From: a candidate division KSB1 bacterium
GTDB taxonomy: Bacteria; Zhuqueibacterota; JdFR-76; DREG01
Assembly (NCBI GenBank): GCA_022566355.1
Contig: JADFJB010000116.1
Location: forward strand, 1 to 14,093
Length of the DNA stretch: 14,093 bases
Direction of reading: 5' to 3'
A model generated the notes under the pieces. That model saw only the letters and a list, made by a program, of their open reading frames with translations. It was not told where the DNA came from and ran no database searches. The position numbers and the translations under genes were made by a program. How positions within the stretch are numbered: the stretch's first letter is position 1; each line of letters begins with the position of its first letter. Below are positions 2,653 to 14,093 of the stretch, one piece after another.

Positions 2653-2731
2653 TTATGCCTTTTTTGATATTGTTAAGTACAATTTTTAAATGTGACAGTA
2701 ATTATATAATTATGTTTTTTTATACTTAGAG

Positions 2732-2747
2732 ATCGTCACAAAATAAC
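2732..2747 (+). repeat. Left terminal inverted repeat of the IS
   Basis: ATCGTCACAAAATAAC, 15/16 identical to the reverse complement of 3993-4008. Weaker similarity (TTATT) continues inward for about ten bases. Confidence 0.7.
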
Positions 2748-2782
2748 TTGATTATTTAAAATTCTTTTTGTATATTTTCTAC

Positions 2783-3985
2783 ATGGAGAATATACAGAAA
2801 AGATATGACTTACTCAAGCCAATAATGAACGAGCGATTTCGTCGTTTATGGAGTGCCGTTGAGGCTAAAGTCATAGGGCATGGTGGAATAGGTTTAGTCT
2901 CTAAGGCTACAGGACAGTCAAGAACTACAATATCTAATGGTATAAAAGAGTTAGACGCTACTGATAAAATAGATATTGAAGGTGTTAGTAGGAAGCCAGG
3001 CGGTGGCAGGAAAAAGATTGTTGATAAAACACCAGAAGTAGAGGCCGAATTGTTACAATTGATAGAACCTACAGTTAGAGGGGAACCGGAGTCACCGATT
3101 TTGTGGACAATAAAAAGTTTACGAAATATATCCGAGGAATTAGGAAAACGAGGTTATAACATTAGTCGTAACAGAGTTGCAGAATTATTGAAAAAGAATG
3201 GTTTTAGTCTTCAGGCTAATCGAAAGACAGATGAAGGAAAAAGCCATCCGGATCGCGATGCACAATTTCAATATATACATGATAAAGTAATAGAGTTTCA
3301 GTCAGTGAATCAACCAGTTATATCAGTAGATACGAAAAAGAAAGAACTGGTAGGTAACTTTAAAAATCAAGGTAGAGAATGGAAACGGAAAGGAGAAGCG
3401 GACAGAGTAAAAGTATATGATTTTCCAAGCGATGCAGAAGGAAAGGCTATTCCTTATGGAGTATATGATATAACGCAAAATGTCGGGTGGGTTAGTGTAG
3501 GAACGAATCATGATACAGCAGAATTTGCAGTGGAGACGATTCGTAAATGGTGGTATAAGATGGGAAACCTCGTATACAAAAATGCCAAACAATTATTAAT
3601 TACTGCAGACGGTGGTGGTAGTAATGGTTCAAGAGTAAGATTATGGAAGAAAGAAATACAGAATTTTGCAACTGAAAGTGGTTTAGAAATTTCGATATGT
3701 CATTATCCCCCTGGTACGAGTAAATGGAATAAAATTGAACATCGTCTTTTTTCATTTATTACACAAAATTGGCGAGGTAAACCGTTAATAACTTATGAAG
3801 TGGTTGTAAAATTAATTGGAGCTACAAAAACTACAAAAGGACTAAAGGTCGACTGTAAATTAGATCATACAGAATATGAAAAAGGACGAAAAGTTAGTGA
3901 TAAAGAATTTAATAAGATAAATTTAATTAAAGATAGTTTTCATGGTGAGTGGAATTATAAAATTGTACCTAAAATTGTCACATAA
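2783..3985 (+). CDS. ISAzo13-family DDE transposase
   Basis: 400 aa from the ATG at 2783; an in-frame TTG five codons earlier is a poorer start, and neither has a clear Shine-Dalgarno. Layout: N-terminal helix-turn-helix DNA-binding region (about residues 20-60, SKATGQSRTTISNGIKEL), a basic GGGRKK linker, a second helical region ending NRVAELLKKNGFSLQANRK (about 130-150), then an RNase-H-like catalytic core. The likely DDE acids are the aspartate in VISVDTKKKE, the aspartate in LLITADGGGSNG and the glutamate in WNKIEHRLFS; these blocks are the family signature. Function: cut-and-insert transposition of the surrounding element. The gene is intact and ends inside the right-end hairpin. It is the only gene here on the plus strand. 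Confidence 0.9.
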   Translation: MENIQKRYDLLKPIMNERFRRLWSAVEAKVIGHGGIGLVSKATGQSRTTISNGIKELDATDKIDIEGVSRKPGGGRKKIVDKTPEVEAELLQLIEPTVRGEPESPILWTIKSLRNISEELGKRGYNISRNRVAELLKKNGFSLQANRKTDEGKSHPDRDAQFQYIHDKVIEFQSVNQPVISVDTKKKELVGNFKNQGREWKRKGEADRVKVYDFPSDAEGKAIPYGVYDITQNVGWVSVGTNHDTAEFAVETIRKWWYKMGNLVYKNAKQLLITADGGGSNGSRVRLWKKEIQNFATESGLEISICHYPPGTSKWNKIEHRLFSFITQNWRGKPLITYEVVVKLIGATKTTKGLKVDCKLDHTEYEKGRKVSDKEFNKINLIKDSFHGEWNYKIVPKIVT

Positions 3986-4008
3986 TAACTCCGTTATTTT
4001 GTGACAAT
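3974..4008 (+). repeat. IS right-end hairpin, including right terminal inverted repeat
   Basis: The right inverted repeat (3993-4008) is preceded by its own near-perfect reverse complement (3974-3989), separated by TCC. The 16-bp arms pair at 15 positions, and the left arm contains the transposase stop codon at 3983-3985. The structure could fold in mRNA as a stop for transcription in either direction, or be a duplicated transposase-binding site. No T-run follows, so a classical intrinsic terminator is not certain. Confidence 0.6.
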
Positions 4009-4125
4009 GCCTTAGTCGTATATGATTCTAATAATTATTGTTTCTGCTTTATTTATTGACGGATTTGGATTCTCCGCACTAATCAAGTTAGCCATGATTG
4101 TTTTTTCTTTAAAAATTCAAGAAAT

Positions 4126-5973
4126 TCACATCGATGTTGTTGAATTTTCTGAAGCTTTAGAATCTCCTTTCCAGAGAGTCTGGAAATAATAGCTGATGAT
4201 CAAAAAGACTCCGCCAAAACCCAGGAATAATAAAATTCGCCAGATCGCTTTCAATTGGGCGAGGTCAACAATAAATAGTTTTCCAACCACTAAAACCAAT
4301 GTTCCGACTGCGACATTTCGCAGTTGACCCTGGTTTAGACGAAGCCCGATTATCAAAAGAGTTAATGCATAAATTCCCCAGGCGATTGTTACGTAACCTT
4401 GTCCATTGGGTAAACTATGAAGCTCTCTGGCAAACCATCCAAGTAAGGCTACATGGGCGATGAATCGATAAAGATTTTTCTCAAGAGAAGTTTTAAACAG
4501 TAACGTGACACCAAAAGATACACAAATCACCCAGAGATCTGTTAATGCTCGTGAGTTGAATACTACAGTTGCCGGAGTTGAAGTTTGATTCAAGCGTCCC
4601 CAAAGCCATAATCCAACGATCACAAATAAAATATGAGAAGCCTTGATCAGAATTGTATCTGAGAATCTATGAGCGATCACGGTTAACACAGTCGCTTCAA
4701 TAGCCAGTATAAACAAAAGCAAATCACCATCAAGAATTAAACAAAAAGCGATAGTTATCAGAAGTATACCAGTTAGTGAGTGGGTTTGTGCAATATTCGT
4801 AAAGGAATCTAATCGCTTAAGTTTTAAGTAGACCAAGCCATAAATAAAAGCCATTCCCATTGTGATCCAACCCCATGATTCATCGGATATGGACCAGATC
4901 TGCATCGAGAGTAGCAAGGATATTAATGGTGTAGAAACCGATAATATATGGATTTGTCGGTCCATAGATTTATCGGTTTTTTCTGATATTTCCTCACTTA
5001 ATTCGGAGGACGGGAGTGGCCAGCGATTTGGATTGTTAGCCTTTGCAATTTTGCGTATAACAGGCATTGCCCAAAATGTGAGCCAGGCAAAAACAATTCC
5101 ACTTTGCAAACTACCATGATCTCCAAATAAACCATGAATCTCATTCGGCAAACCGTTGCTGAGTGCGATCCAAAATACAATCCAACCACCAAGAAAGGAA
5201 ACCCATAACAGGGATCGCCAACCTCGATAAAAATAGATGGCGCCGGTTCCGGCTAGGATCAGGCAGGTATAACCAACCAGTCCTGGCAAACTGCCGGATT
5301 CAGTATACAACAAGAAGGGTGTGCCAAATCCGCCAATTGCCCCAATGAGGGAGAGTATCGCTTCATTCTGTTTTAGGGATAGAACAAATGCAAGCGTGGT
5401 AACGGAAACCATGAATACAAATGCAACTGGATGGGAAATTAGGGTATAGAGTTGAAATGCTGAGAACCCACAAATGTAAAATGCTGCGATAGCGCCACCT
5501 AACAGCACTTGACTGAAGTGTGGTCGCTTCGAATAGATTCGGAGACCTACAACTAATAACGCTATAGCCAGGGCTAGTCCAAAAGCAACACGGATGACGG
5601 GAGTTATCCAGCCTTGGTCAATCGAATATTTGAACAAGAATACCACGCCAAAAAGAAGAAGTCCGATGCCGATTTTATTGAGCCAGAACTCACTGGTTTG
5701 CATATTTTCAGGGATTTGGAAAGTTTTCCGACTTGGCAAAGGCTTTTGGGATGGCGCAATAGGAGGTTTTGGCTTTGGGCTTACAGGCGGTTGAACATGT
5801 TCTCGAGAGTGAGTTTCTGATTGTAAACTTTCTTTCGCGACTTCCTCCGGAAGATTTTGTTCTTTTGGGATTAACGGTTCATCTAACTGTTTAAGCAAAT
5901 GTTGGAGTTCTTCAACACGTTTTTCCAACTGCTCAACACGGTCATTTAAATTTTTGTCATTTTGATCTGACAT
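4126..5973 (-). CDS. DUF2339 multi-spanning membrane protein
   Basis: 615 aa. Residues about 8-32 (LNDRVEQLEKRVEELQHLLKQL) form a coiled coil; about 33-90 is a proline- and lysine-rich linker with SPKPKPPIAPSQKPLPS; the rest, from WLNKIGIGLLLFGVVFLFKY on, is a long series of hydrophobic segments (around 18) typical of DUF2339 (PF10101). Conserved-looking blocks include VLLGGAIAAFYICGFSAF and SLIGAIGGFGTPFLL. The biochemical role of the family is not established; I do not assign one. The ATG at 5973 has a good Shine-Dalgarno (GGAG, 6 bases upstream) and a sigma70-like promoter upstream. It is monocistronic as far as can be seen, with the IS inserted about 115 bp beyond its stop. Confidence 0.88.
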   Translation of the reverse strand: MSDQNDKNLNDRVEQLEKRVEELQHLLKQLDEPLIPKEQNLPEEVAKESLQSETHSREHVQPPVSPKPKPPIAPSQKPLPSRKTFQIPENMQTSEFWLNKIGIGLLLFGVVFLFKYSIDQGWITPVIRVAFGLALAIALLVVGLRIYSKRPHFSQVLLGGAIAAFYICGFSAFQLYTLISHPVAFVFMVSVTTLAFVLSLKQNEAILSLIGAIGGFGTPFLLYTESGSLPGLVGYTCLILAGTGAIYFYRGWRSLLWVSFLGGWIVFWIALSNGLPNEIHGLFGDHGSLQSGIVFAWLTFWAMPVIRKIAKANNPNRWPLPSSELSEEISEKTDKSMDRQIHILSVSTPLISLLLSMQIWSISDESWGWITMGMAFIYGLVYLKLKRLDSFTNIAQTHSLTGILLITIAFCLILDGDLLLFILAIEATVLTVIAHRFSDTILIKASHILFVIVGLWLWGRLNQTSTPATVVFNSRALTDLWVICVSFGVTLLFKTSLEKNLYRFIAHVALLGWFARELHSLPNGQGYVTIAWGIYALTLLIIGLRLNQGQLRNVAVGTLVLVVGKLFIVDLAQLKAIWRILLFLGFGGVFLIISYYFQTLWKGDSKASENSTTSM

Positions 5974-6035
5974 TTATAACTCCACTAAAATCATATTCCC
6001 AGGGTTTGCACTACAACTCAGTCTATAGTGACAGG

Positions 6036-6064
6036 AAATTACAGCAATGGTTAGGAAATGTCAA
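6036..6064 (-). promoter_or_regulatory. sigma70-like promoter for the DUF2339 gene
   Basis: On the minus strand TTGACA (6064-6059), a 17-bp spacer and TAATTT (6041-6036) lie about 63 bp before the DUF2339 ATG. The predicted leader is about 55 nt. This is the best promoter-like match in this intergenic region; it rests on sequence similarity only. Confidence 0.5.
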
Positions 6065-6105
6065 GGGAAAACTTGCAACAGAATTTGTATTACAATAAGC
6101 AATAG

Positions 6106-6177
6106 GCCACGGATTTACACAGATTTTCACGGATGAAAATGGAGATCGTCTGTTATTTGTCTGTGGAAGTCTGTGGC
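6106..6177. repeat. 72-bp inverted-repeat element between thiI and the DUF2339 gene
   Basis: Outer arms GCCACGGATTTACACAGA (6106-6123) and TCTGTGGAAGTCTGTGGC (6160-6177) are inverted repeats matching at 15 of 18 positions, with TTTCACGGATGAAAAT inside. It begins 5 bp after the thiI stop on the minus strand, so it may form a hairpin at the 3' end of the thiI transcript. Repeats built from CCACGGATT/CCACAGATT words are widespread in environmental bacterial genomes (recalled). No open frame. Confidence 0.6.
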
Positions 6178-6182
6178 AAAAA

Positions 6183-7481
6183 TCACTTTATTCGCCTTCC
6201 ACCTTCGAATTTCATTTCGATCACTTCGGAAAGGGTATCATCGATCATCTTCTGATAATCAGGAAAGATATTTATTTCAATCCCGGAAAGTTGTTCATGA
6301 TCTGAAACTGTTTTGGGATGTCGGCTGATTAATGAACAACAATCTTTATATTCTTCAATTGAATCTTCAAATGTGCCAATTTGTTTGGCCATCTTGACAA
6401 TATCATTTTTACTGTAAGTCAACAGGGGGCGAAAAACCGGTAAGTCTGTGGCATGTGAAAGCGAAACGATATTGGGCAGCGTTTGAGAAGCCACTTGTCC
6501 CAGGCTATCCCCATTTACTATTGCCTGAGCATGAATTTTATTGCCGAGCTGTTCGGCTACCCGCGCCATAAAGCGGCGGAAAATAACCAGGTCATATGGC
6601 ACTTTATGGCCGAGTAATGCGATGTCAAAATAAGTGTAGGGGACAAGATAGAGCCGGGAGCGGAGAGTGTGGTTGCTCAAATGTTGAGCGATGCGAGTGA
6701 CTTTATAGGAATCAGCTTCGTCTTGCTGCATGGATGTCGCGGTAAAGTGAATAAAATCTACAGAACAGCCGCGGCCTGCAATCAAATAAACCGCGACGGG
6801 TGAATCAATACCGCCTGATAGCAACGCAATAACTTTTCCTGCCGTGCCCACCGGCAGCCCGCCAGGCCCTCTCTCTTTTCTACTGAAGATATAGTAACTA
6901 TCCGCCTGAAATTCTGCATAAAATGTTTCGTCCGGGTTGGTGAGATCTACCTTGTCCCAGTCCGTGTTTGTTATGATGGCATGCCCTAATTGACCTTCGA
7001 TTTGAATGGAATTGAAGGGCAAAGATTTTACCGCTCGTTTTACCCGCACACAAAAGGTTTTGCCAGGCGAGAATCTTTTTTTGGCCAGTTCGATAAAATG
7101 GTTTTCTAATTGGGCTGTATCTGACTCATGCGATTCTCCAATAAAATCTTGATGAGGAACTTTTTTTGCAGATGTGAGCCAGGCAACACCAAAAATCTCC
7201 CGGACCTTTTGGAATATTGCTTCACTTGAGCTTTCATATTTATCCGGAATGACCACATACAGATACCCCCGAGTCTCATAGACCGGACAGTCAAATCCTA
7301 TATTTTTTAACATGAACCTGATGTTTTCTTTGAGCTTTTTACGAAAAACAGGCTGATTTTTCCCCTTCAATCCAATTTCACTGTCATAGTGGATGAGGAT
7401 TGTGTTTGAATAGTTTTGTGATGAAGATAGCACCGAGATGAATTTTGTATTTTTGCTATTTGAGATATATCTGTTTTTCAT
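6183..7481 (-). CDS. thiI: tRNA 4-thiouridine synthase ThiI (no rhodanese domain)
   Basis: 432 aa. ThiI adenylates uridine 8 of tRNA and transfers sulfur to give 4-thiouridine; in some bacteria it also supplies sulfur for the thiazole of thiamine. Seen: an N-terminal ferredoxin-like part with HYDSEIGLKGKN (31-42), a THUMP region (about 75-195), the PP-loop SGGIDSPVA (222-230), the conserved GDSLGQVASQT block (324-334), and a cysteine pair in DCCSLISRHPKT (381-382) at the place of the E. coli Cys344 region. The protein ends there, so the C-terminal rhodanese domain of the enteric form is absent, as in Gram-positive and archaeal homologues. The start ATG has AAGGA a few bases upstream but gives about 24 residues more than usual before the ferredoxin-like strand; a GTG at codon 17 is an alternative. 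It begins 65 bp after the res stop, on the same strand. Confidence 0.93.
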   Translation of the reverse strand: MKNRYISNSKNTKFISVLSSSQNYSNTILIHYDSEIGLKGKNQPVFRKKLKENIRFMLKNIGFDCPVYETRGYLYVVIPDKYESSSEAIFQKVREIFGVAWLTSAKKVPHQDFIGESHESDTAQLENHFIELAKKRFSPGKTFCVRVKRAVKSLPFNSIQIEGQLGHAIITNTDWDKVDLTNPDETFYAEFQADSYYIFSRKERGPGGLPVGTAGKVIALLSGGIDSPVAVYLIAGRGCSVDFIHFTATSMQQDEADSYKVTRIAQHLSNHTLRSRLYLVPYTYFDIALLGHKVPYDLVIFRRFMARVAEQLGNKIHAQAIVNGDSLGQVASQTLPNIVSLSHATDLPVFRPLLTYSKNDIVKMAKQIGTFEDSIEEYKDCCSLISRHPKTVSDHEQLSGIEINIFPDYQKMIDDTLSEVIEMKFEGGRRIK

Positions 7482-7546
7482 CTTTTCCTTTTAAAAGATT
7501 TACCCATTTTCCCCTGCTATTACATTGGATGTGTGAAAGCGGTTTC

Positions 7547-8266
7547 TCAATCCAATTCACCCACAGTTGCAACCTGCCTGTATTTAATATCTTCAAACTC
7601 ATTAAAATGAGCATACCCGCATTTTATCTTCCTTTCTTCACTTGTCTTTAATTCCTGTCCTGCTGATTTTGTTTCGGCGACAAAATAAACCGTTTTTTCA
7701 TTCTTCTTTATTAAAGCCCAGTCAGGGTTATAATTTCCGATTGGCGTTTTAATCTTGAACCAGAATGGAATTTTGAAATAAAATTCAATGTCGTCTCTGC
7801 TTTCACATTCTTTGGCAAAATTATATTCAACATTGGAGTCAAGCGGAAAAAGATTACTGTAAATGGTTTTATCTTCCTTATTTATCTTAAACGTCAGGTT
7901 ATCGACATGAATTTCATAGTCCTCAAACAATCTCATTTCATATTCTTTTGAACCGATTTTTTCGTATTTAATACCTTCAATCATTAAATCCGTGAGAACA
8001 TCTTTTATTGCAATTACAGTATTGTCCAAAAAAAGCTGTGGATTAATTAATACTTCCGCAATTCTTTCCGATTTTTTAAGGATTTCCAGAATCGTCGTGC
8101 GGGTCAGCTCAGTTCTTTCCTGTATGTAATAAAGAACATCAGGTATTTGGAATACACCATCCAGTGATGTTACGTAAGAGGCTTTTGTTTCCATTACAAT
8201 ACCCGCCTCATCAAATTTAAGAGACGTTTTAGTTGTCTTAATTACCGCTTTTTTGATAGAGGGCAT
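7547..8266 (-). CDS. Type III restriction enzyme Res, C-terminal endonuclease part (split by frameshift)
   Basis: 239 aa from the first ATG; the reading frame is open further up to a stop at 8423-8425, and those extra codons (RYRKGFELDEKFRDIWERIK, then TYRVEYDTAELIKK) continue Res homology, so this is the second half of one gene and not an independent start. No ATG, GTG or TTG lies between 8422 and 8266. The C-terminal nuclease is intact: aspartate 182 in NYNPDWALI and glutamate 198/lysine 200 in YFVAETK form the PD-(D/E)XK triad. In working type III enzymes this domain cuts DNA 25-27 bp from the site, in complex with Mod. Here it is cut off from the helicase by a one-base frameshift. Whether any protein is made from this part is unknown. 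Clear as to origin, uncertain as to expression. Confidence 0.85.
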   Translation of the reverse strand: MPSIKKAVIKTTKTSLKFDEAGIVMETKASYVTSLDGVFQIPDVLYYIQERTELTRTTILEILKKSERIAEVLINPQLFLDNTVIAIKDVLTDLMIEGIKYEKIGSKEYEMRLFEDYEIHVDNLTFKINKEDKTIYSNLFPLDSNVEYNFAKECESRDDIEFYFKIPFWFKIKTPIGNYNPDWALIKKNEKTVYFVAETKSAGQELKTSEERKIKCGYAHFNEFEDIKYRQVATVGELD

Positions 8267-8397
8267 TTGATTAACTGCTTTTGCCGTTTTTTTAATCAGT
8301 TCAGCAGTATCATATTCAACCCGATACGTGGTTTGCTGTTTTATTCTTTCCCAGATGTCTCTGAATTTTTCATCCAGTTCAAAACCTTTCCGATACC

Positions 8398-10170
8398 TTA
8401 CCGTTGCCCTTTTCCGTTTGTTTTAATTCTGCCTTTAAAAGATACGCCGCAATCTAGTTCAATCTCAGACTGTAATTGCTTAGCAAAATCTTCATAAGAT
8501 TCATTTGCGATTACTGTCAATCGGTTAATGTTTTTGTCTTGTATTCGGACTCCTTCCTGATTAACTGAAAGTCTTAAGCCTCTGCCGATTTCCTGTCTTT
8601 TTTTTAACTCGGATTGCGTTTCGTTCAAGGTACATATCTGAAAAACATTTGGGTTGTCCCAGCCTTCACGGAGAGCGGAATGGCTGAAAATAAACCGCAA
8701 TGGCTCGGTATTATCAAGAAGTTTTTCTTTGTTTTTCATGATCAGTTTAAAGGTATCATCGTCTGCCTGTGTATTTCCCTTTGTATCTTTCCATTTACCT
8801 TTCTTATCCGCTGAAAAATAGCCATTGTGAACTTCATCCACATCAAACGGAATTAAACTTTTGAATGCGGATTTGAAGGATATTTCCTTGTATATTTCTT
8901 CAAACCATTTGGCTAATTTGCCTTTAACCGGAATACCGTCCGAATCATAATCACGGTAATTGGCTACACGGTCTATAAAGAAAAGAGAAAGCACCTTTAT
9001 CCCTTTGCTTTTAAACTCTCTTTCTTTTAAGAAATGTTCTTCAACTGTTTTCCGAATTTGAACTTTCATAATCTCATCGGAAAGCCCACCGAATGTATCG
9101 CCCACAAAAATGGTTTCGCCGTTTGAAAGCTCAACTAAACTTTCGGAAATATCAATTCCATTTAGTATATAACCGTTTTTATAAATCTCTCGTTTGTTGG
9201 ATAAATCGTATAAATCATCGCCCACTTTTGCGGAAACGGATTTTCTTTTGACACCATCAGGCGTATTTACATCTATTTTGATTTTAGCGGAAGTGCGTGT
9301 CTTTGTTGCTGTTACTTTTTCAAGACAAAAGTACGCTTCATTAAAATCATTCTCAGTAATAATAGAATCCACTTCAATCTGTTTTACCAGGCCAAGATCA
9401 TAGGCTTTTACGGGATCAAGGCTGTAAACCATATTGTAACGGTTGGTGTGGGTTGCAGAGTAACGTAGCGTGCAAAGCGAATTCAAGTTCTCAAGCGCTT
9501 TTTTCCTGATTTCCGTTTCCATGTTTTGCGGTTCATCCACAATAACAATGGGAGAGGTAGTTTGTATAAATTCAATCGGTTTTTTGCCTGTCAGTTTGTC
9601 ATTAGTCTTGTTTATTATATTTTCATCTTTGGCAAAGGAATCGATATTGATAACAAGAATTTGAATATTATTATTAATGGCAAAATTTCTTAAATTGGAT
9701 ACCCTCTTGGAGTCGTACACATCAAAATTAACCGGCGTCTTATCGTAAAGGTTTTGAAAATGGTCAAAGGTTATTTCAAGGTTTTTTAATACGCCTTCAC
9801 GGATAGCAATGGAGGGAACAACAATAACGAATTTTTTAAACCCGTATTTTTTATTCAACTCATAAATGGTGCGAAGATACACATAGGTTTTACCGGTTCC
9901 GGTTTCCATTTCCACAGAAAAATTCATGCCGTCCAGTTTTTCGGAGACAGGCAACACATTCTTCTTTTGGATTTCCTGAATATTTTTTAGAGTTTGTTCT
10001 ACACTTATTTCTAATCGATTTCCAACCCCGCCTTCCCGGAACATATAATTTTCAGAACTTATTGAAAAGCTGAAATCACCCTGGTTTAATGGTTGACCTT
10101 TAAATATTCCAACAATAGCGCTTATCGCATCGTGCTGAAATTGCTGGTTGGGGTCGAAGTGGAGTTTCAT
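8398..10170 (-). CDS. Type III restriction enzyme Res, helicase part (split by frameshift)
   Basis: 590 aa, the first two-thirds of a type III restriction subunit. Superfamily 2 helicase motifs are present in order: METGTGKT (Walker A, 88-95), DEPQ (motif II, 212-215), SATHTNR (motif III, from 238), REGWDNP (motif V, about 501-507) and QEIGRGLR (motif VI, 526-533). Known role: ATP-driven movement along DNA until two Mod2Res complexes meet. The last nine codons or so (KTNGKGQR) are read out of frame after loss of one A, and the stop removes the nuclease domain. The ATG lies 6 bp after the DUF4276 stop. Its first 83 bases are repeated at 12184-12266 with one mismatch. With the partner mod genes broken in this window, restriction activity is unlikely unless an intact mod lies elsewhere. 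Confidence 0.9.
   Translation of the reverse strand: MKLHFDPNQQFQHDAISAIVGIFKGQPLNQGDFSFSISSENYMFREGGVGNRLEISVEQTLKNIQEIQKKNVLPVSEKLDGMNFSVEMETGTGKTYVYLRTIYELNKKYGFKKFVIVVPSIAIREGVLKNLEITFDHFQNLYDKTPVNFDVYDSKRVSNLRNFAINNNIQILVINIDSFAKDENIINKTNDKLTGKKPIEFIQTTSPIVIVDEPQNMETEIRKKALENLNSLCTLRYSATHTNRYNMVYSLDPVKAYDLGLVKQIEVDSIITENDFNEAYFCLEKVTATKTRTSAKIKIDVNTPDGVKRKSVSAKVGDDLYDLSNKREIYKNGYILNGIDISESLVELSNGETIFVGDTFGGLSDEIMKVQIRKTVEEHFLKEREFKSKGIKVLSLFFIDRVANYRDYDSDGIPVKGKLAKWFEEIYKEISFKSAFKSLIPFDVDEVHNGYFSADKKGKWKDTKGNTQADDDTFKLIMKNKEKLLDNTEPLRFIFSHSALREGWDNPNVFQICTLNETQSELKKRQEIGRGLRLSVNQEGVRIQDKNINRLTVIANESYEDFAKQLQSEIELDCGVSFKGRIKTNGKGQR
8421..8424 (-). other. Frameshift site inside res
   Basis: The minus strand reads ATTAAAACAAACGGAAAAGG. 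With five A instead of four after ATT the translation becomes GRIKNKRKRATVRYRKGFEL and runs into the nuclease half without a stop up to 7547 (about 874 codons in total, a normal Res length). As given, it reads GRIKTNGKGQR and stops. One missing base in a homopolymer can be a true mutation, a sequencing error or, less likely, a slippery site. Confidence 0.85.
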
Positions 10171-10176
10171 GATAAT

Positions 10177-10737
10177 TTAAATTTCAAGTATGTTTTTAAT
10201 ACCAGTAATAAAAACGTTAAAGCTATTCGAGCGTGTATTATCTAGCTTCAAGTATTCTCCAATCGCCCTTGAACCAGATATCTTTTGATAAATTCTCTTT
10301 GTGAGGCGCTCTAATTCATCTGATGGCGCTTGAATGGAATCCGGATTACGATATCTTTTTTTCACCTGGTACTTTGCAATTCCAGGTAACTCCAACCCAT
10401 GCTCAACTGCTTCCAAGTCGCCTAAATACCAACTTTCCAATTCGTGGCAAGCTATTCGAACAAGAGTGTGCGGCTTTTTATCTTCCGGGCACAACTTCAA
10501 AAGATTAAATTTTACTGTTTTACAGTCAGCCGAATCCTGGTCTCGCAATATAATAAATTTCGAATTTGGAAGTTTCCATCCCCGCAACTTTCTTGCTAAT
10601 TTTTTTTCAAGATCCTGTTTCCCTTCAAAAACAACATAACGTATAAATATATTTTCTTGAACTATCAGGCGGCGTAGGAGAACTTCTAATAAAGCTTCCG
10701 CCGAGGGCTCTTCGAGAAAAAAAACGAGATTTATCAT
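10177..10737 (-). CDS. DUF4276 family protein (TOPRIM-like), partner of AAA ATPase
   Basis: 186 aa. Matches the DUF4276 pattern: N-terminal strand with glutamates FFLEEPSAEALLEVLL (6-21), VVFEGKQDLEKKLARKLRGW (35-54), FIILRDQDSADC (61-72) and VRIACHELESWYLGD (93-107). The early glutamate followed by D66-x-D68 resembles the E...DxD metal site of TOPRIM nucleases; this is an inference from spacing, not a tested fact. The ATG overlaps the stop of the AAA ATPase gene (ATGA, 10734-10737), and the stop is 6 bp before the res ATG, so the three are translationally linked. Known precedent: SMC/ABC-like ATPases paired with TOPRIM-like effectors (OLD-type and PARIS-type modules) act in phage defence. 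The exact activity of this family is not known to me. Confidence 0.85.
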   Translation of the reverse strand: MINLVFFLEEPSAEALLEVLLRRLIVQENIFIRYVVFEGKQDLEKKLARKLRGWKLPNSKFIILRDQDSADCKTVKFNLLKLCPEDKKPHTLVRIACHELESWYLGDLEAVEHGLELPGIAKYQVKKRYRNPDSIQAPSDELERLTKRIYQKISGSRAIGEYLKLDNTRSNSFNVFITGIKNILEI

Positions 10738-11930
10738 AAAGGATCAACCCCTTCAAAAAAGCCTTCTTTCCACAGGTATCCCATTTTATCTCCGTCCGAC
10801 ATATAGGCAGCAATTTGTGCATCTTCACTCGCACGAATAATAGAAGTATATCCGTTTTTTTTGACTAACATAAATACTTCTTCCAGTTTTGCGGCATTAA
10901 GAAAATCAGGCGAGTGAGTTGAGACAAAAACCTGACCGCCTCCAATGGAATAAGCTCTGAATTCTTCCGCTAATTCAGCAAGCAATTTTGGATACAGTTG
11001 GTTTTCCGGTTCCTCAATGCACAATAAAGGATGAGGGTTGGGATCGTGCAGAAGGATAAGATAGGCAAACATTTTTATTGTACCATCCGACACATAGCGG
11101 GCAAGGAAAGGATCCTTAAAAGTTCCATCCTGGAATTTTAATAATACTCTTCCTTCTTCCGTTGTTTTTGCATCGACTTTTGTTATCCCCGGAATACGTT
11201 TCGTAAGAGATTTAAGAATTAAATCAAAGACAGATTTGTGGTTCTGATAAAGAAACTGAGTTACCAGAGCTAAATTTTCCCCTTCCCGTGACAAATGTTC
11301 TGCATAGCCGGCGTCCTGCGTTTGCCTTGCTGCGCTAATATGAAAATCAGAAACGTGCCAGTTTTCAATCATTTGCCCAAGCTCCATAACGGCCGGATAT
11401 TTCTTAAATTGGGCAAGCCCTTTTATCGCCAAAATATTTGGTTTCGCAAGAGATTGTTGTTCCCGTTCTAACTGTGATTCATCTGTAACATCATCAAACT
11501 CATTAGTAACGGCACGCCCCTCCCCCCTTGAAAATTCAAGAAATTTCCACGGCTGTCCATGGCTGCCTCTGCGGTAGCGCAATTCTTCTCGCTCAACTAT
11601 GGGTTGTCCGTTTTCTTCGTTGATCGCCAATGTGTAGGTTGCAAGTGGGTTTTTCTTTTTGTCATCAGATTTCATTTCAAAACGGAACTTGATTTCTATT
11701 TCTATTGGTCCATCAGAATCTCTACTATGTACTTCTTTATATCCGCCGCGTTTACTTAATGCAATTTGAACATTATCCGTAAGTGCATCCTTAAGAAAGC
11801 CAAATACATCGAACAAAGTACTTTTACCTGTTCCATTTGCACCTACAATTATGCAAAAAGAAGGAATCTCTCTCATTTCTATTTCTTTAAAAGCTTTAAA
11901 ATTTTTAAGACTAATAGTTTCTATTTTCAT
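10734..11930 (-). CDS. AAA/ABC-like ATPase (AAA_21/RecF-like), accessory gene of the restriction locus
   Basis: 398 aa from the ATG at 11930, chosen because AGGAG lies 7 bases upstream; a GTG at 11945 overlaps that Shine-Dalgarno and is unlikely. Features: MKIETISLKNFKAFKEIEM start typical of overcoming-lysogenisation-defect/RecF-like ATPases, Walker A GANGTGKST (30-38), signature-like YVSDGT (near 281-284), Walker B LLCIEEPENQL (EEPEN near 306-310) and the switch histidine in STHSPDF (near 339). There is no long coiled coil, so it is a compact ATPase. The gene starts 11 bp after the ancestral stop of a mod 3' remnant and overlaps the DUF4276 gene by 4 bp. Inferred role: sensor or motor subunit that controls the DUF4276 effector, with the pair as an anti-phage module within the type III locus. 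Confidence 0.9.
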   Translation of the reverse strand: MKIETISLKNFKAFKEIEMREIPSFCIIVGANGTGKSTLFDVFGFLKDALTDNVQIALSKRGGYKEVHSRDSDGPIEIEIKFRFEMKSDDKKKNPLATYTLAINEENGQPIVEREELRYRRGSHGQPWKFLEFSRGEGRAVTNEFDDVTDESQLEREQQSLAKPNILAIKGLAQFKKYPAVMELGQMIENWHVSDFHISAARQTQDAGYAEHLSREGENLALVTQFLYQNHKSVFDLILKSLTKRIPGITKVDAKTTEEGRVLLKFQDGTFKDPFLARYVSDGTIKMFAYLILLHDPNPHPLLCIEEPENQLYPKLLAELAEEFRAYSIGGGQVFVSTHSPDFLNAAKLEEVFMLVKKNGYTSIIRASEDAQIAAYMSDGDKMGYLWKEGFFEGVDPL

Positions 11931-11941
11931 CTTTTTACTCC

Positions 11942-12183
11942 TCACACCACCTTAAATTCAATCCCTACATCTTTCATCTAACAATGTGGCATTGGTTTTT
12001 AATTGGTCATTGTTATTAAACAAACGGTCGAGTGTAATTACCTTTTGCGGGTTTACATCAAGAACCGTCTTAATGATTTCTTTATTCATCTTATCAAGAA
12101 TTAATGCAATTTCAGTTTTATTCACAAGGTAAAAGCCGTCTTTTTCTTCAATCTTTGCGGTAGGCGAAACGCCGGACTTCAAG
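11942..12183 (-). pseudogene. 3' remnant of a type III methyltransferase gene (mod copy A)
   Basis: About 80 codons. The translation SGVSPTAKIEEKDGFYLVNK, then TEIALILDKMNKEIIK, NPQKVITLDRLFNNNDQLKT is the C-terminal end of a type III Mod subunit. It is joined upstream to a res start fragment at 12183/12184 in the same frame. Near 11977-11984 one extra base (TTGTTAGATG, against TTGCAGATG in the other copy) shifts the frame; corrected, the end reads MKDVGIEFKVV and stops at 11942-11944, 11 bp before the AAA ATPase ATG. As written, a stop comes at 11958. All methyltransferase motifs are missing. Confidence 0.85.
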
Positions 12184-12266
12184 AATGGTTGACCTTTAAA
12201 TATTCCAACAATAGCGCTTATCGCATCGTGCTGAAATTGCTGGTTGGGGTCGAAGTGAAGTTTCAT
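11958..12266 (-). CDS. Chimeric small ORF: Res start fused to Mod end
   Basis: 102 aa: residues 1-27 are MKLHFDPNQQ...GIFKGQP, the same as the first 27 residues of the downstream Res, and the remainder is the Mod C-terminal remnant, ending in out-of-frame LLDERCRD. It begins one base after the AlbA_2 stop (TAA-A-ATG). It has no catalytic motif and most likely reflects a recombination scar that happens to be in frame. Translation is possible because of the coupling, but a function is not supported. Confidence 0.5.
   Translation of the reverse strand: MKLHFDPNQQFQHDAISAIVGIFKGQPFLKSGVSPTAKIEEKDGFYLVNKTEIALILDKMNKEIIKTVLDVNPQKVITLDRLFNNNDQLKTNATLLDERCRD
12184..12266 (-). repeat. 83-bp duplicated res 5' end (copy of 10088-10170)
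   Basis: Bases 12184-12266 and 10088-10170 are direct repeats, identical except G10162/A12258. The identity starts exactly at the res ATG and ends within codon 28. Outside it, the two places differ completely on both sides, so this is a fragment of a second res gene. Confidence 0.93.
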
Positions 12267-12267
12267 T

Positions 12268-13425
12268 TTATTGTGCAGGCCTATGGATTGTAACCTTAAA
12301 ATAGTCAGCTTCCAAATTGCTCTCAAAGTCAATATGCGGATAAGCTTTCAATGAATTTAATATTCCACTCCCAATACCCCTGTACGGCAATAAGTCGATA
12401 GCATAGGAAGTAAGCAGAATATTTCTGTCCCTTCTTTGTATTCCCCTCTTAATATCTTCGACTGTCAGATTGTTTGGAAGCCTGCCTGGGTTTTTTATTT
12501 CCACCCGATTGGGGAAGATATATAGTTTAATGGAATCTTCAATAAAATAATCCCTATGGAAAATTGCATTGATAAGTAATTCCTTGATGACCAATTCCGG
12601 AATTTCCAAATCGCCAATACTGTTGAAGTCTTTGTCTTTTTGTATGCGGTTTAATTTACTCACAACAAAGTCTTTGCCTTTGTTGTATTTTTCTACCATA
12701 GTGCCATAAATATTATCACTTGAACGATACTTGTCAGTTAGAAATTCATTTGTGTCAAACCATATTGCGTTAATACAGAACTGGGGGATAATGGCCCTGT
12801 TATTGTTACCAAACAGGAGCAAAGAAGCAAGGGTTAGATTGTCATTTACTAAAAGTTTCAGGTTATTCAGAATCCGTTCAACCTCACCTTTTTTATCAAT
12901 AATTACCTCTTCAAAGCGATTTTTATAAAACTCTTTGAATAATCCGATGTTTACATCAGCAAGCGTTGCATTTCCGATAATTTGCTGCTCGGCATAAAGC
13001 AACTTTTTTTCCTGCATTAACCTTGACATTTCTGCATTGTCGATCACCTTTCGTTTATTCGGCCCGCTGCGCACCCACACAGAGTGGTTCTTGTCCCTGT
13101 ATAAAGTGATTCCCTTTTCGATGTAAATCAACAACACATTCTTGTCTTCTATTTTGACAACTTCTGTCCAGATGCTGCCGATAGGCGGCTTTGTATTATT
13201 GGCAGCAAGATTCATAGCGAGGTTCTGGTATTTCTTGAGTTGGTCTTTGCTGAGTCCCTTGACATCTGCATTATCGTCTACCCCAATAATCAATAATCCG
13301 CCTAATGAATTGGCAAAAGCAACCATTTCCGCGTTAAGTTTATCAGGGGAATCTATATCGCCCTTAAACTCGACTTTGCTTGTTTCCCCTTGACTAATTA
13401 TTTCCAATAATTCTGATACTTCCAT
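12268..13425 (-). CDS. AlbA_2/Schlafen-type protein with C-terminal GHKL-like ATP-binding domain
   Basis: 385 aa, intact. The N-terminal AlbA_2 domain (about 5-125) carries SQGETSKVEFKGDI and MVAFANSLGGLLIIGVDDN, then VWVRSGPNKRKVI. The C-terminal half has the HATPase_c_4-type blocks ELLINAIFHRDYF, EIKNPGRLP and PYRGIGSGI, corresponding to the N-box and glycine box. Known: proteins of this build are annotated as ATP-binding or RNA-binding regulators; AlbA_2 is the domain shared with Schlafen nucleases, and such genes often lie in defence regions. Start: ATG with AAGGA about 10 bases upstream. It sits 31 bp after the 3' end of the mod remnant and 1 bp before a res start fragment, exactly the place an accessory gene would have in a mod-X-res operon. 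Function not proven. Confidence 0.88.
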   Translation of the reverse strand: MEVSELLEIISQGETSKVEFKGDIDSPDKLNAEMVAFANSLGGLLIIGVDDNADVKGLSKDQLKKYQNLAMNLAANNTKPPIGSIWTEVVKIEDKNVLLIYIEKGITLYRDKNHSVWVRSGPNKRKVIDNAEMSRLMQEKKLLYAEQQIIGNATLADVNIGLFKEFYKNRFEEVIIDKKGEVERILNNLKLLVNDNLTLASLLLFGNNNRAIIPQFCINAIWFDTNEFLTDKYRSSDNIYGTMVEKYNKGKDFVVSKLNRIQKDKDFNSIGDLEIPELVIKELLINAIFHRDYFIEDSIKLYIFPNRVEIKNPGRLPNNLTVEDIKRGIQRRDRNILLTSYAIDLLPYRGIGSGILNSLKAYPHIDFESNLEADYFKVTIHRPAQ

Positions 13426-13456
13426 AATTAGTAAATCCTTTTGTGCTGACTAAATG

Positions 13457-13791
13457 CTACACAACCTTAAATTCAATCCCCGCATCCTTCATCTGCAATG
13501 CGGTATTGGTTTTTAGCTGGTCATTGTTATTAAATAAACGGTCGAGTGTAATTACTTTTTGCGGTGTTGCCTCAAGAACCTTCTGAATAATTGTCATATC
13601 TATTTTTTCAAGAATTAATACAATTTCAGTATCATTTGCATGGTTAATCCGGTCTTGTTAAATTCAATATCCTCCCCCAAAGCGGCTTTCAGTTTTTCCC
13701 AGTCAATCTTGTTTTCGGTAAATGCTTCGGGAATAATTTCTTTTAGCTTATTCAGCTTTTCTTCTGTAATATTCGCTGACTTTCCATCCAT
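13457..13791 (-). pseudogene. mod: Internally deleted type III methyltransferase gene (mod copy B)
   Basis: The ATG at 13791 opens MDGKSANITEEKLNKLKEII, then FTENKIDWEKLKAALGEDIEF, the recognisable N-terminus of type III Mod proteins. After about 47 codons the homology stops (near 13650) and is followed, in another frame, by the Mod C-terminus: DTEIVLILEKIDMTIIQKVL, ATPQKVITLDRLFNNNDQLK, MKDAGIEFKVV and TAG at 13457-13459. Roughly 500 codons that would carry the DPPY and AdoMet motifs and the target recognition domain are missing. The gene cannot methylate DNA. The 3' end is in better shape than copy A and differs from it at about 22 of 135 aligned bases. The AlbA_2 gene follows after 31 bp. 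Confidence 0.85.
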
Positions 13792-13943: not shown

Positions 13944-13971
13944 ATCATATCTTCAAATAAATTGCTTGCAA
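13944..13971 (-). promoter_or_regulatory. Possible promoter of the mod/accessory operon
   Basis: Minus-strand TTGCAA (13971-13966), a 16-bp spacer and TATGAT (13949-13944) resemble a sigma70 promoter about 150 bp before the mod-remnant ATG. The region 13792-13950 is AT-rich, as expected for a leader, and holds no gene I can support. The match is modest and the region is biased in composition. Confidence 0.3.
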
Positions 13972-13980
13972 ATTAACATT

Positions 13981-14043
13981 TTCATTGTTCATTGTTCATT
14001 GTTCATTGTTCATTGTTCATTGTTCATTGTTCATTGTTCATTG
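13981..14043. repeat. Nine perfect tandem copies of a 7-bp repeat (TTCATTG)
   Basis: 63 bp made of exactly nine TTCATTG units (CAATGAA on the minus strand), ending at CTGATCG. It starts 10 bp beyond the putative -35 box upstream of the mod remnant. On the minus strand the repeat gives TGA in every frame, so no minus-strand gene reads through it. Perfect short tandem repeats change length by slippage, and length change here would alter spacing upstream of the promoter. Confidence 0.9.
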
Positions 14044-14093
14044 CTGATCGATACCGCCCTGCACAATAAATCAGTCGATTGCAATATTTTTCC

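Follow-up and report, generated by a model that had tools for sequence, protein, structure and literature searches.

The junction between mod and res in the type III restriction-modification (R-M) family studied here, which occurs in bacteria and archaea, is very probably an operon slot for interchangeable defence modules, with the locus described below as a decayed remnant that carries two such modules. The window, by which we mean the whole stretch of DNA analysed, comprises 14,093 nt and corresponds to one whole contig of a draft genome of 213 contigs that is 98.5% complete. The initial annotation had read the mod-res junction as a position for accessory defence cassettes and had proposed a survey of relatives, which bore this out: the junction was filled in 56 of 92 loci, by many unrelated defence-type families, and mod and res were adjacent in 36 of the 92 rather than in nearly all of them.

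The locus lies on the minus strand and consists of two modules, one composed of a mod 3′ end, an AlbA_2 gene and a res 5′ end, followed by another composed of a mod 3′ end, an AAA gene, a DUF4276 gene and res. The first mod (mod1) persists as an N-terminal relic of about 47 codons of a type III Mod (13651–13791; PDLC03634 positions 5–56, and translation) and a C-terminal relic of about 65 codons (13457–13660; PDLC03634 positions 554–618) that is out of frame with the N-terminal part, the middle having been deleted. Cassette 1 is a single gene of 385 aa with AlbA_2 and HATPase_c_4 domains (12268–13425; PF04326, 2.1e-19; PF13749, 6.9e-10). It is followed by only the first 83 bp of res1 (12184–12266; 99% identity to the start of res2) and then by the junction into mod2, of which the 3′ end alone is present (11942–12183; Mod HMM positions 549–621, E 5e-15), with a small indel close to its end in an alignment to the mod of locus L038. 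Cassette 2 comprises a gene for an AAA_21 ABC-type ATPase (10734–11930; AAA_21, 1.5e-34), the product of which contains the Walker A motif GANGTGKS and the Walker B-like motif IEEPENQ, and a DUF4276 gene (10177–10737; DUF4276, 3.5e-16) that overlaps it by 4 nt. The final gene, res2, is full length at about 874 codons with one frameshift (7547–10170; PDLC03647 positions 1–578 and 733–982) and matches ResIII (2.7e-16), RE_endonuc (2.3e-32) and REase_III (8e-232). The frameshift is located near 8400–8430, where the frame changes at codon ~583 in a tblastn comparison with the Res of L032. The loss of an internal piece from res2 was considered and rejected because short Res proteins normally do not have that stretch of the profile.

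All four spacings given in the initial annotation were reproduced from the sequence. The mod1 stop codon (TAG, 13459–13457) is separated by 31 bp from the AlbA_2 ATG (13425), and the AlbA_2 stop by 1 bp from the res1 ATG (12266); the corresponding distances in the second module are 11 bp between the mod2 stop (TGA, 11944–11942) and the AAA start (ATG 11930, with an in-frame GTG upstream at 11945) and 6 bp between the DUF4276 stop and the res2 ATG (10170). Both cassettes thus have the arrangement of embedded modules, that is, non-R-M defence-type genes placed between R-M genes, co-directional with them and tightly spaced.

The 3′ ends of mod1 and mod2 could be aligned over ~210 nt, 164 nt of which are at 80% DNA identity, and the 5′ ends of res1 and res2 form a direct repeat of 83 nt at 99% identity within the window. 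Mod and Res genes occur together in one operon, as expected for a type III system (PDLC03647, PDLC03634, RE_endonuc), in the form of relics: none of the R-M genes is intact, with the middle of mod1 gone, mod2 and res1 reduced to fragments and res2 frameshifted, which makes this a decayed type III locus, and all three accessory ORFs are intact. A search of the rest of the genome for a further type III mod or res of the same kind found none. Because mod and res are broken and no other copy was found in the genome, the type III restriction system of the window looks dead, with the accessory ORFs still open. The proposal of the initial annotation that a deletion fused two loci is consistent with these data, the direct evidence being confined to the junction and to the failure to find the lost parts anywhere else in the genome; the loss of the mod1 middle, the res2 frameshift and the mod2 indel go beyond what had been noted there. 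Elsewhere in the window, we observed a BrnT/BrnA-type toxin-antitoxin pair at one contig end (2–548, minus strand; PF04365, 6.7e-24; NF047399, 1e-14), an ISAzo13-family transposase gene (2768–3985) surrounded by imperfect inverted repeats (2660–4016), and a 7-bp tandem repeat of the ATGAACA type (13967–14055) at the other contig end, upstream of mod1.

For the survey, 80 Res relatives from one-per-species genomes were collected with up to 10 kb of flanking DNA each, and a second sample was obtained by searching whole genomes, of which 340 came from one phylum, 82 from the phylum of the window and a few from others. The 92 loci are the deduplicated Res relatives that have mod upstream on the same contig. 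The Mod HMM was made from the loci of the Res relatives and rebuilt without one wrong seed, a 624-aa protein beside res in L040; its assignment as Mod was rejected because Pfam identified it as AlbA_2, and L040 was reclassified as filled. The slot of that locus (L040, 3056–9994) holds four genes, namely an Eco57I-type methylase, its partner, an AlbA_2 gene (385 aa) and the divergent AlbA_2 gene (624 aa). Filled slots accounted for 39 of 67 loci in the genome-contig sample and for 17 of 25 in the whole-genome sample (8 adjacent), or, sorted by Res length, for 34 of 47 loci with a short Res (840–925 aa) and 17 of 40 with a long Res; both samples were built around a single Res family and include many draft or metagenome-assembled loci, and these frequencies cannot be extended to type III systems in general.

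Mod and res were adjacent in 9 of the 14 plasmid loci inspected, mostly long-Res systems. Complete plasmids with filled slots were found in Chryseobacterium (YhcG-type), Rhizobium (DUF262), Thiodictyon (RhuM), Acinetobacter (two ORFs, one of them GmrSD-like) and Planctomycetes K2D, the slot protein of the last being 92% identical to the GmrSD protein of L066. Because complete plasmids carry filled slots, the slot itself is not an artefact of draft assembly. A long-Res system on a Citrobacter plasmid (NZ_CP056645.1; L156, 1–3951) has ATP-dependent endonuclease and DUF2130 genes upstream of mod and not between mod and res, as well as an upstream DUF4391 gene.

Both cassette types of the window recur in the slot, as the initial annotation had anticipated: AlbA_2 was found in 12 other loci and AAA-DUF4276 in 4 others, plus one seen separately. 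The other contents included RhuM (8 loci), YhcG/DUF1016 (5 and a fragment), an Eco57I-type methylase with its partner (4), GmrSD (3), Fic/SoFic (3) and PrrC-like AAA_13 (3), as well as Bro-N/KilA-N, OLD or Gabija GajA-GajB, complete QatABCD, Shedu, TIR, ParB_N, a MORC-like HATPase with a C5 methylase, PDC-M11 and others; slot members that had no Pfam search of their own were assigned by blastp clustering. About 8 of the 56 filled slots contained no recognised gene. Slot genes of 104–288 aa in L057, L064, L065, L067, L108 and L135 had no Pfam match, and those of L064, L065 and L067 had no PADLOC match either; we regard them as candidate unknown defence families. Pfam scans of ~50 slot proteins gave no match to a transposase or an integrase, and a mobile-element origin of the cassettes was rejected on this basis.

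The slot has a distinctive geometry. Of its ORFs of at least 100 aa, 98 of 100 are on the strand of mod and res, compared with 68 of 86 genes immediately upstream of mod and 44 of 67 immediately downstream of res. The distance from the mod stop codon to the cassette was at most 51 nt in 46 of 53 cases, and 16 of the cassette-to-res junctions are 4-nt overlaps.

The contents change between closely related operons. On a Res tree of 91 rows, slot content required at least 50 changes (54.0 on average with shuffled labels) and the empty or filled state at least 23 (28.6 on average with shuffled labels). Slot content thus follows Res ancestry only weakly; the filled or empty state keeps some phylogenetic signal. 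Res proteins that are 92–95% identical were associated with unlike contents in L139 (empty) and L140 (Bro-N), L074 (AAA-DUF4276) and L076 (Fic), L057 and L058, and L035 (AlbA_2) and L131 (methylase, YhcG, Bro-N). The operons L139 (empty, 14 nt) and L140 (Bro-N, 920 nt) share 87–89% DNA identity with precise breakpoints, which were also observed for L057/L058, L053/L056, L051/L052 and L074/L076. In blastn comparisons of such pairs, homology extended to the mod stop codon and started again at or near the res ATG, and the middle of mod, the expected specificity region, varied separately.

Stray pieces of mod and res were found at cassette borders. L131 contains copies of the res 5′ end of 51 nt and 32 nt after its first and second cassette, respectively, both at the spacing expected of a real res, and in L090 a 63-nt mod 3′ fragment at 98% identity precedes a cassette. 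A copy of the mod 3′ end also precedes a cassette in L058 and L038, with a weak one in L061, where it separates an AlbA_2 gene from the complete QatABCD that follows in the same slot (3809–9992). The largest scars of this kind are those in the window, which retains ~240 bp from a mod 3′ end and 83 bp from a res 5′ end. In a blastn comparison, the mod and res ends of a locus matched its own slot in 4 of 55 filled loci, compared with 1 of 440 pairs for interior control pieces, and scars occur in about 1 in 11 filled slots. The scars in the window and in at least four other loci suggest transfer of modules from slot to slot. We also considered whether unusual DNA conservation at the mod 3′ or res 5′ end might mark a special recombination signal, but neither end was unusually conserved.

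The AAA-DUF4276 pair of the window matches the HEC-01 profiles of PADLOC (HEC-01B, 1.8e-202, for the ATPase; HEC-01A, 6.8e-80, for the DUF4276 protein). The 2024 preprint by Payne et al. (bioRxiv 10.1101/2024.01.29.577857) is said to have introduced guilt-by-embedding, is described by others as dealing with defence genes embedded in multi-gene systems, and is cited for the HEC and PDC families. HEC-01 takes its name from candidates embedded in Hma operons; the window pair differs in that it sits in a type III mod-res operon, for which turnover and scars were measured. Relatives of the window ATPase were found in 16 of the 340 genomes of one phylum, with 17 matches. Two of these are in mod-res slots. 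Among the others, the AAA-DUF4276 relative of L183 is embedded in a type I operon, with hsd genes on both sides, and that of L177 in an Hma-like operon, where it is flanked by an SNF2 helicase and an N6_N4 methylase; at least 3 of the 17 matches have no adjoining R-M gene. The initial annotation had held that adjacency of mod and res in nearly all relatives, together with cassette genes occurring mostly elsewhere, would mark a chance rearrangement. The second point is partly true, in that the ATPase relatives mostly lie outside mod-res slots, but this distribution is what one expects of a module that roams and not of a rearrangement by chance.

By sequence, DUF4276 had no match in the PDB. Its structural model (pLDDT 74) was nearest to the OLD C-terminal domain, GajA and a chain of PARIS AriB, with moderate Z scores of 6.4 to 4.8, so that a TOPRIM-like fold is predicted at moderate confidence. 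Because the predicted fold is nearest to the TOPRIM domains of OLD, GajA and AriB, the AAA–DUF4276 pair is probably an ABC-ATPase-controlled nuclease. PARIS (AriA-AriB) and the OLD-family nucleases combine an ABC-type ATPase with a TOPRIM-like partner, as the window pair may do, although they belong to different families by sequence and the structural similarity is moderate (Z about 6).

We propose that the mod-res junction may act as an exchange port that has no dedicated recombinase, a reading that we consider evenly balanced between true and false. Modules would travel between slots by recombination in the flanking mod 3′ and res 5′ DNA, and imperfect exchange would stack them and leave the scars; in the window, two module-bearing loci would have been joined and their R-M genes would have decayed. 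Gene order, strand and overlaps point to a single transcript from which Mod would be made first, the cassette next and Res last, and the cell would be methylated before the accessory effectors and Res appear. The cassettes are probably independent second-line defences, to a large extent, against phages that escape or inhibit restriction, and may include modification-dependent nucleases, ATPase-TOPRIM pairs, anticodon-nuclease-like ATPases, TIR and Fic.

A different reading, which we regard as unlikely, is that slot proteins physically monitor Mod or Res and are set off by phage inhibition of restriction, in the way known for PrrC and EcoPrrI, so that their position would reflect functional dependence on the R-M complex. 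The PrrC-like AAA_13 genes in the slots of L110, L126 and L130 argue for it, as does the predicted TOPRIM-like fold of DUF4276 close to AriB, given that PARIS senses anti-restriction proteins (PMC12707154), and by analogy a guard role like that of PrrC is possible for some cassettes. However, stand-alone systems are known for the Qat, Gabija, Shedu and GmrSD families, relatives of AAA-DUF4276 are mostly outside mod-res loci, both cassettes of the window are open beside an apparently dead R-M system, and the swapping of contents between near-identical R-M operons argues against a tight fit to one Mod or Res.

Simple clustering in defence islands, in which genes land everywhere and the mod-res junction is just one gap, is very improbable. 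Such clustering would agree with the often defence-like neighbours of mod and res and with the accessory genes upstream of mod on some plasmids (L156), but the strand bias within the slot (98:2) and its 4-nt overlaps stand against ratios of 68:18 and 44:23 outside, the borders coincide exactly with the mod stop codon and the start of res, mod and res scars mark the cassette borders, and the ~50 Pfam-scanned slot proteins lacked transposase or integrase matches. It is also improbable that two type III loci were mis-assembled into the double structure of the window, a reading that would leave the slot in relatives standing regardless. It would agree with the 213-contig draft state, the tandem repeat in which the contig ends and the 83-bp direct repeat at 99% identity, but the missing parts of res1 and mod2 were not found elsewhere in the 98.5% complete genome, mod1 and res2 bear separate decay, and other loci show similar slots with mod and res fragments.

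The proposed slot for interchangeable modules has precedents in other R-M operons. PrrC, encoded within the type IC hsd operon of EcoprrI, is likewise an accessory anti-phage gene inside an R-M operon, and the type III slot also holds genes of the AAA_13 type; PrrC differs in being one effector in a type I operon with proven coupling to R-M, whereas the type III slot holds many unrelated modules, for which such coupling would be putative. TgvAB, a GmrSD-like system embedded in the type I R-M locus of V. cholerae VPI-2, protects on its own (PMC11411939), and DarTG2 lies between hsdS and hsdR in EPEC (PMC12255303). Both resemble the type III slot, in which GmrSD-type genes are also found, as defence modules between R-M genes; they differ in that they belong to type I operons and that protection was shown by experiment, and the available parts of these reports describe no mod 3′ or res 5′ scars. 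According to Makarova et al. 2012 (PMC3506569), exchangeable genes resembling toxins are part of many R-M systems of types I and III, and the authors wrote of ‘repeated toxin displacement’; the available text describes neither the geometry nor the frequency of a mod-res slot, and contains no turnover measured on a tree and no recombination scars. A paper on type III diversity described an extra ATPase gene 5′ of mod (PMC8259958), and in the accessible portions of that paper, of a review (PMC12707154) and of a history of type III systems (PMC3874151), we found no mod-res slot. The survey of the type III slot and its scars therefore appear to be new, the coverage of type III systems in the Payne preprint aside; embedding in R-M operons was already known.

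The slot provides a searchable address for defence genes between type III mod and res, and several of its families are unnamed. Near-identical operons with unlike contents, together with the scars, open the swapping of defence modules to direct tests, and operon pairs found in nature, L139/L140 among them, offer a clean comparison of the dependence of slot genes on the restriction system. If the exchange-port reading is true, each stacked operon would record how its defences arrived.
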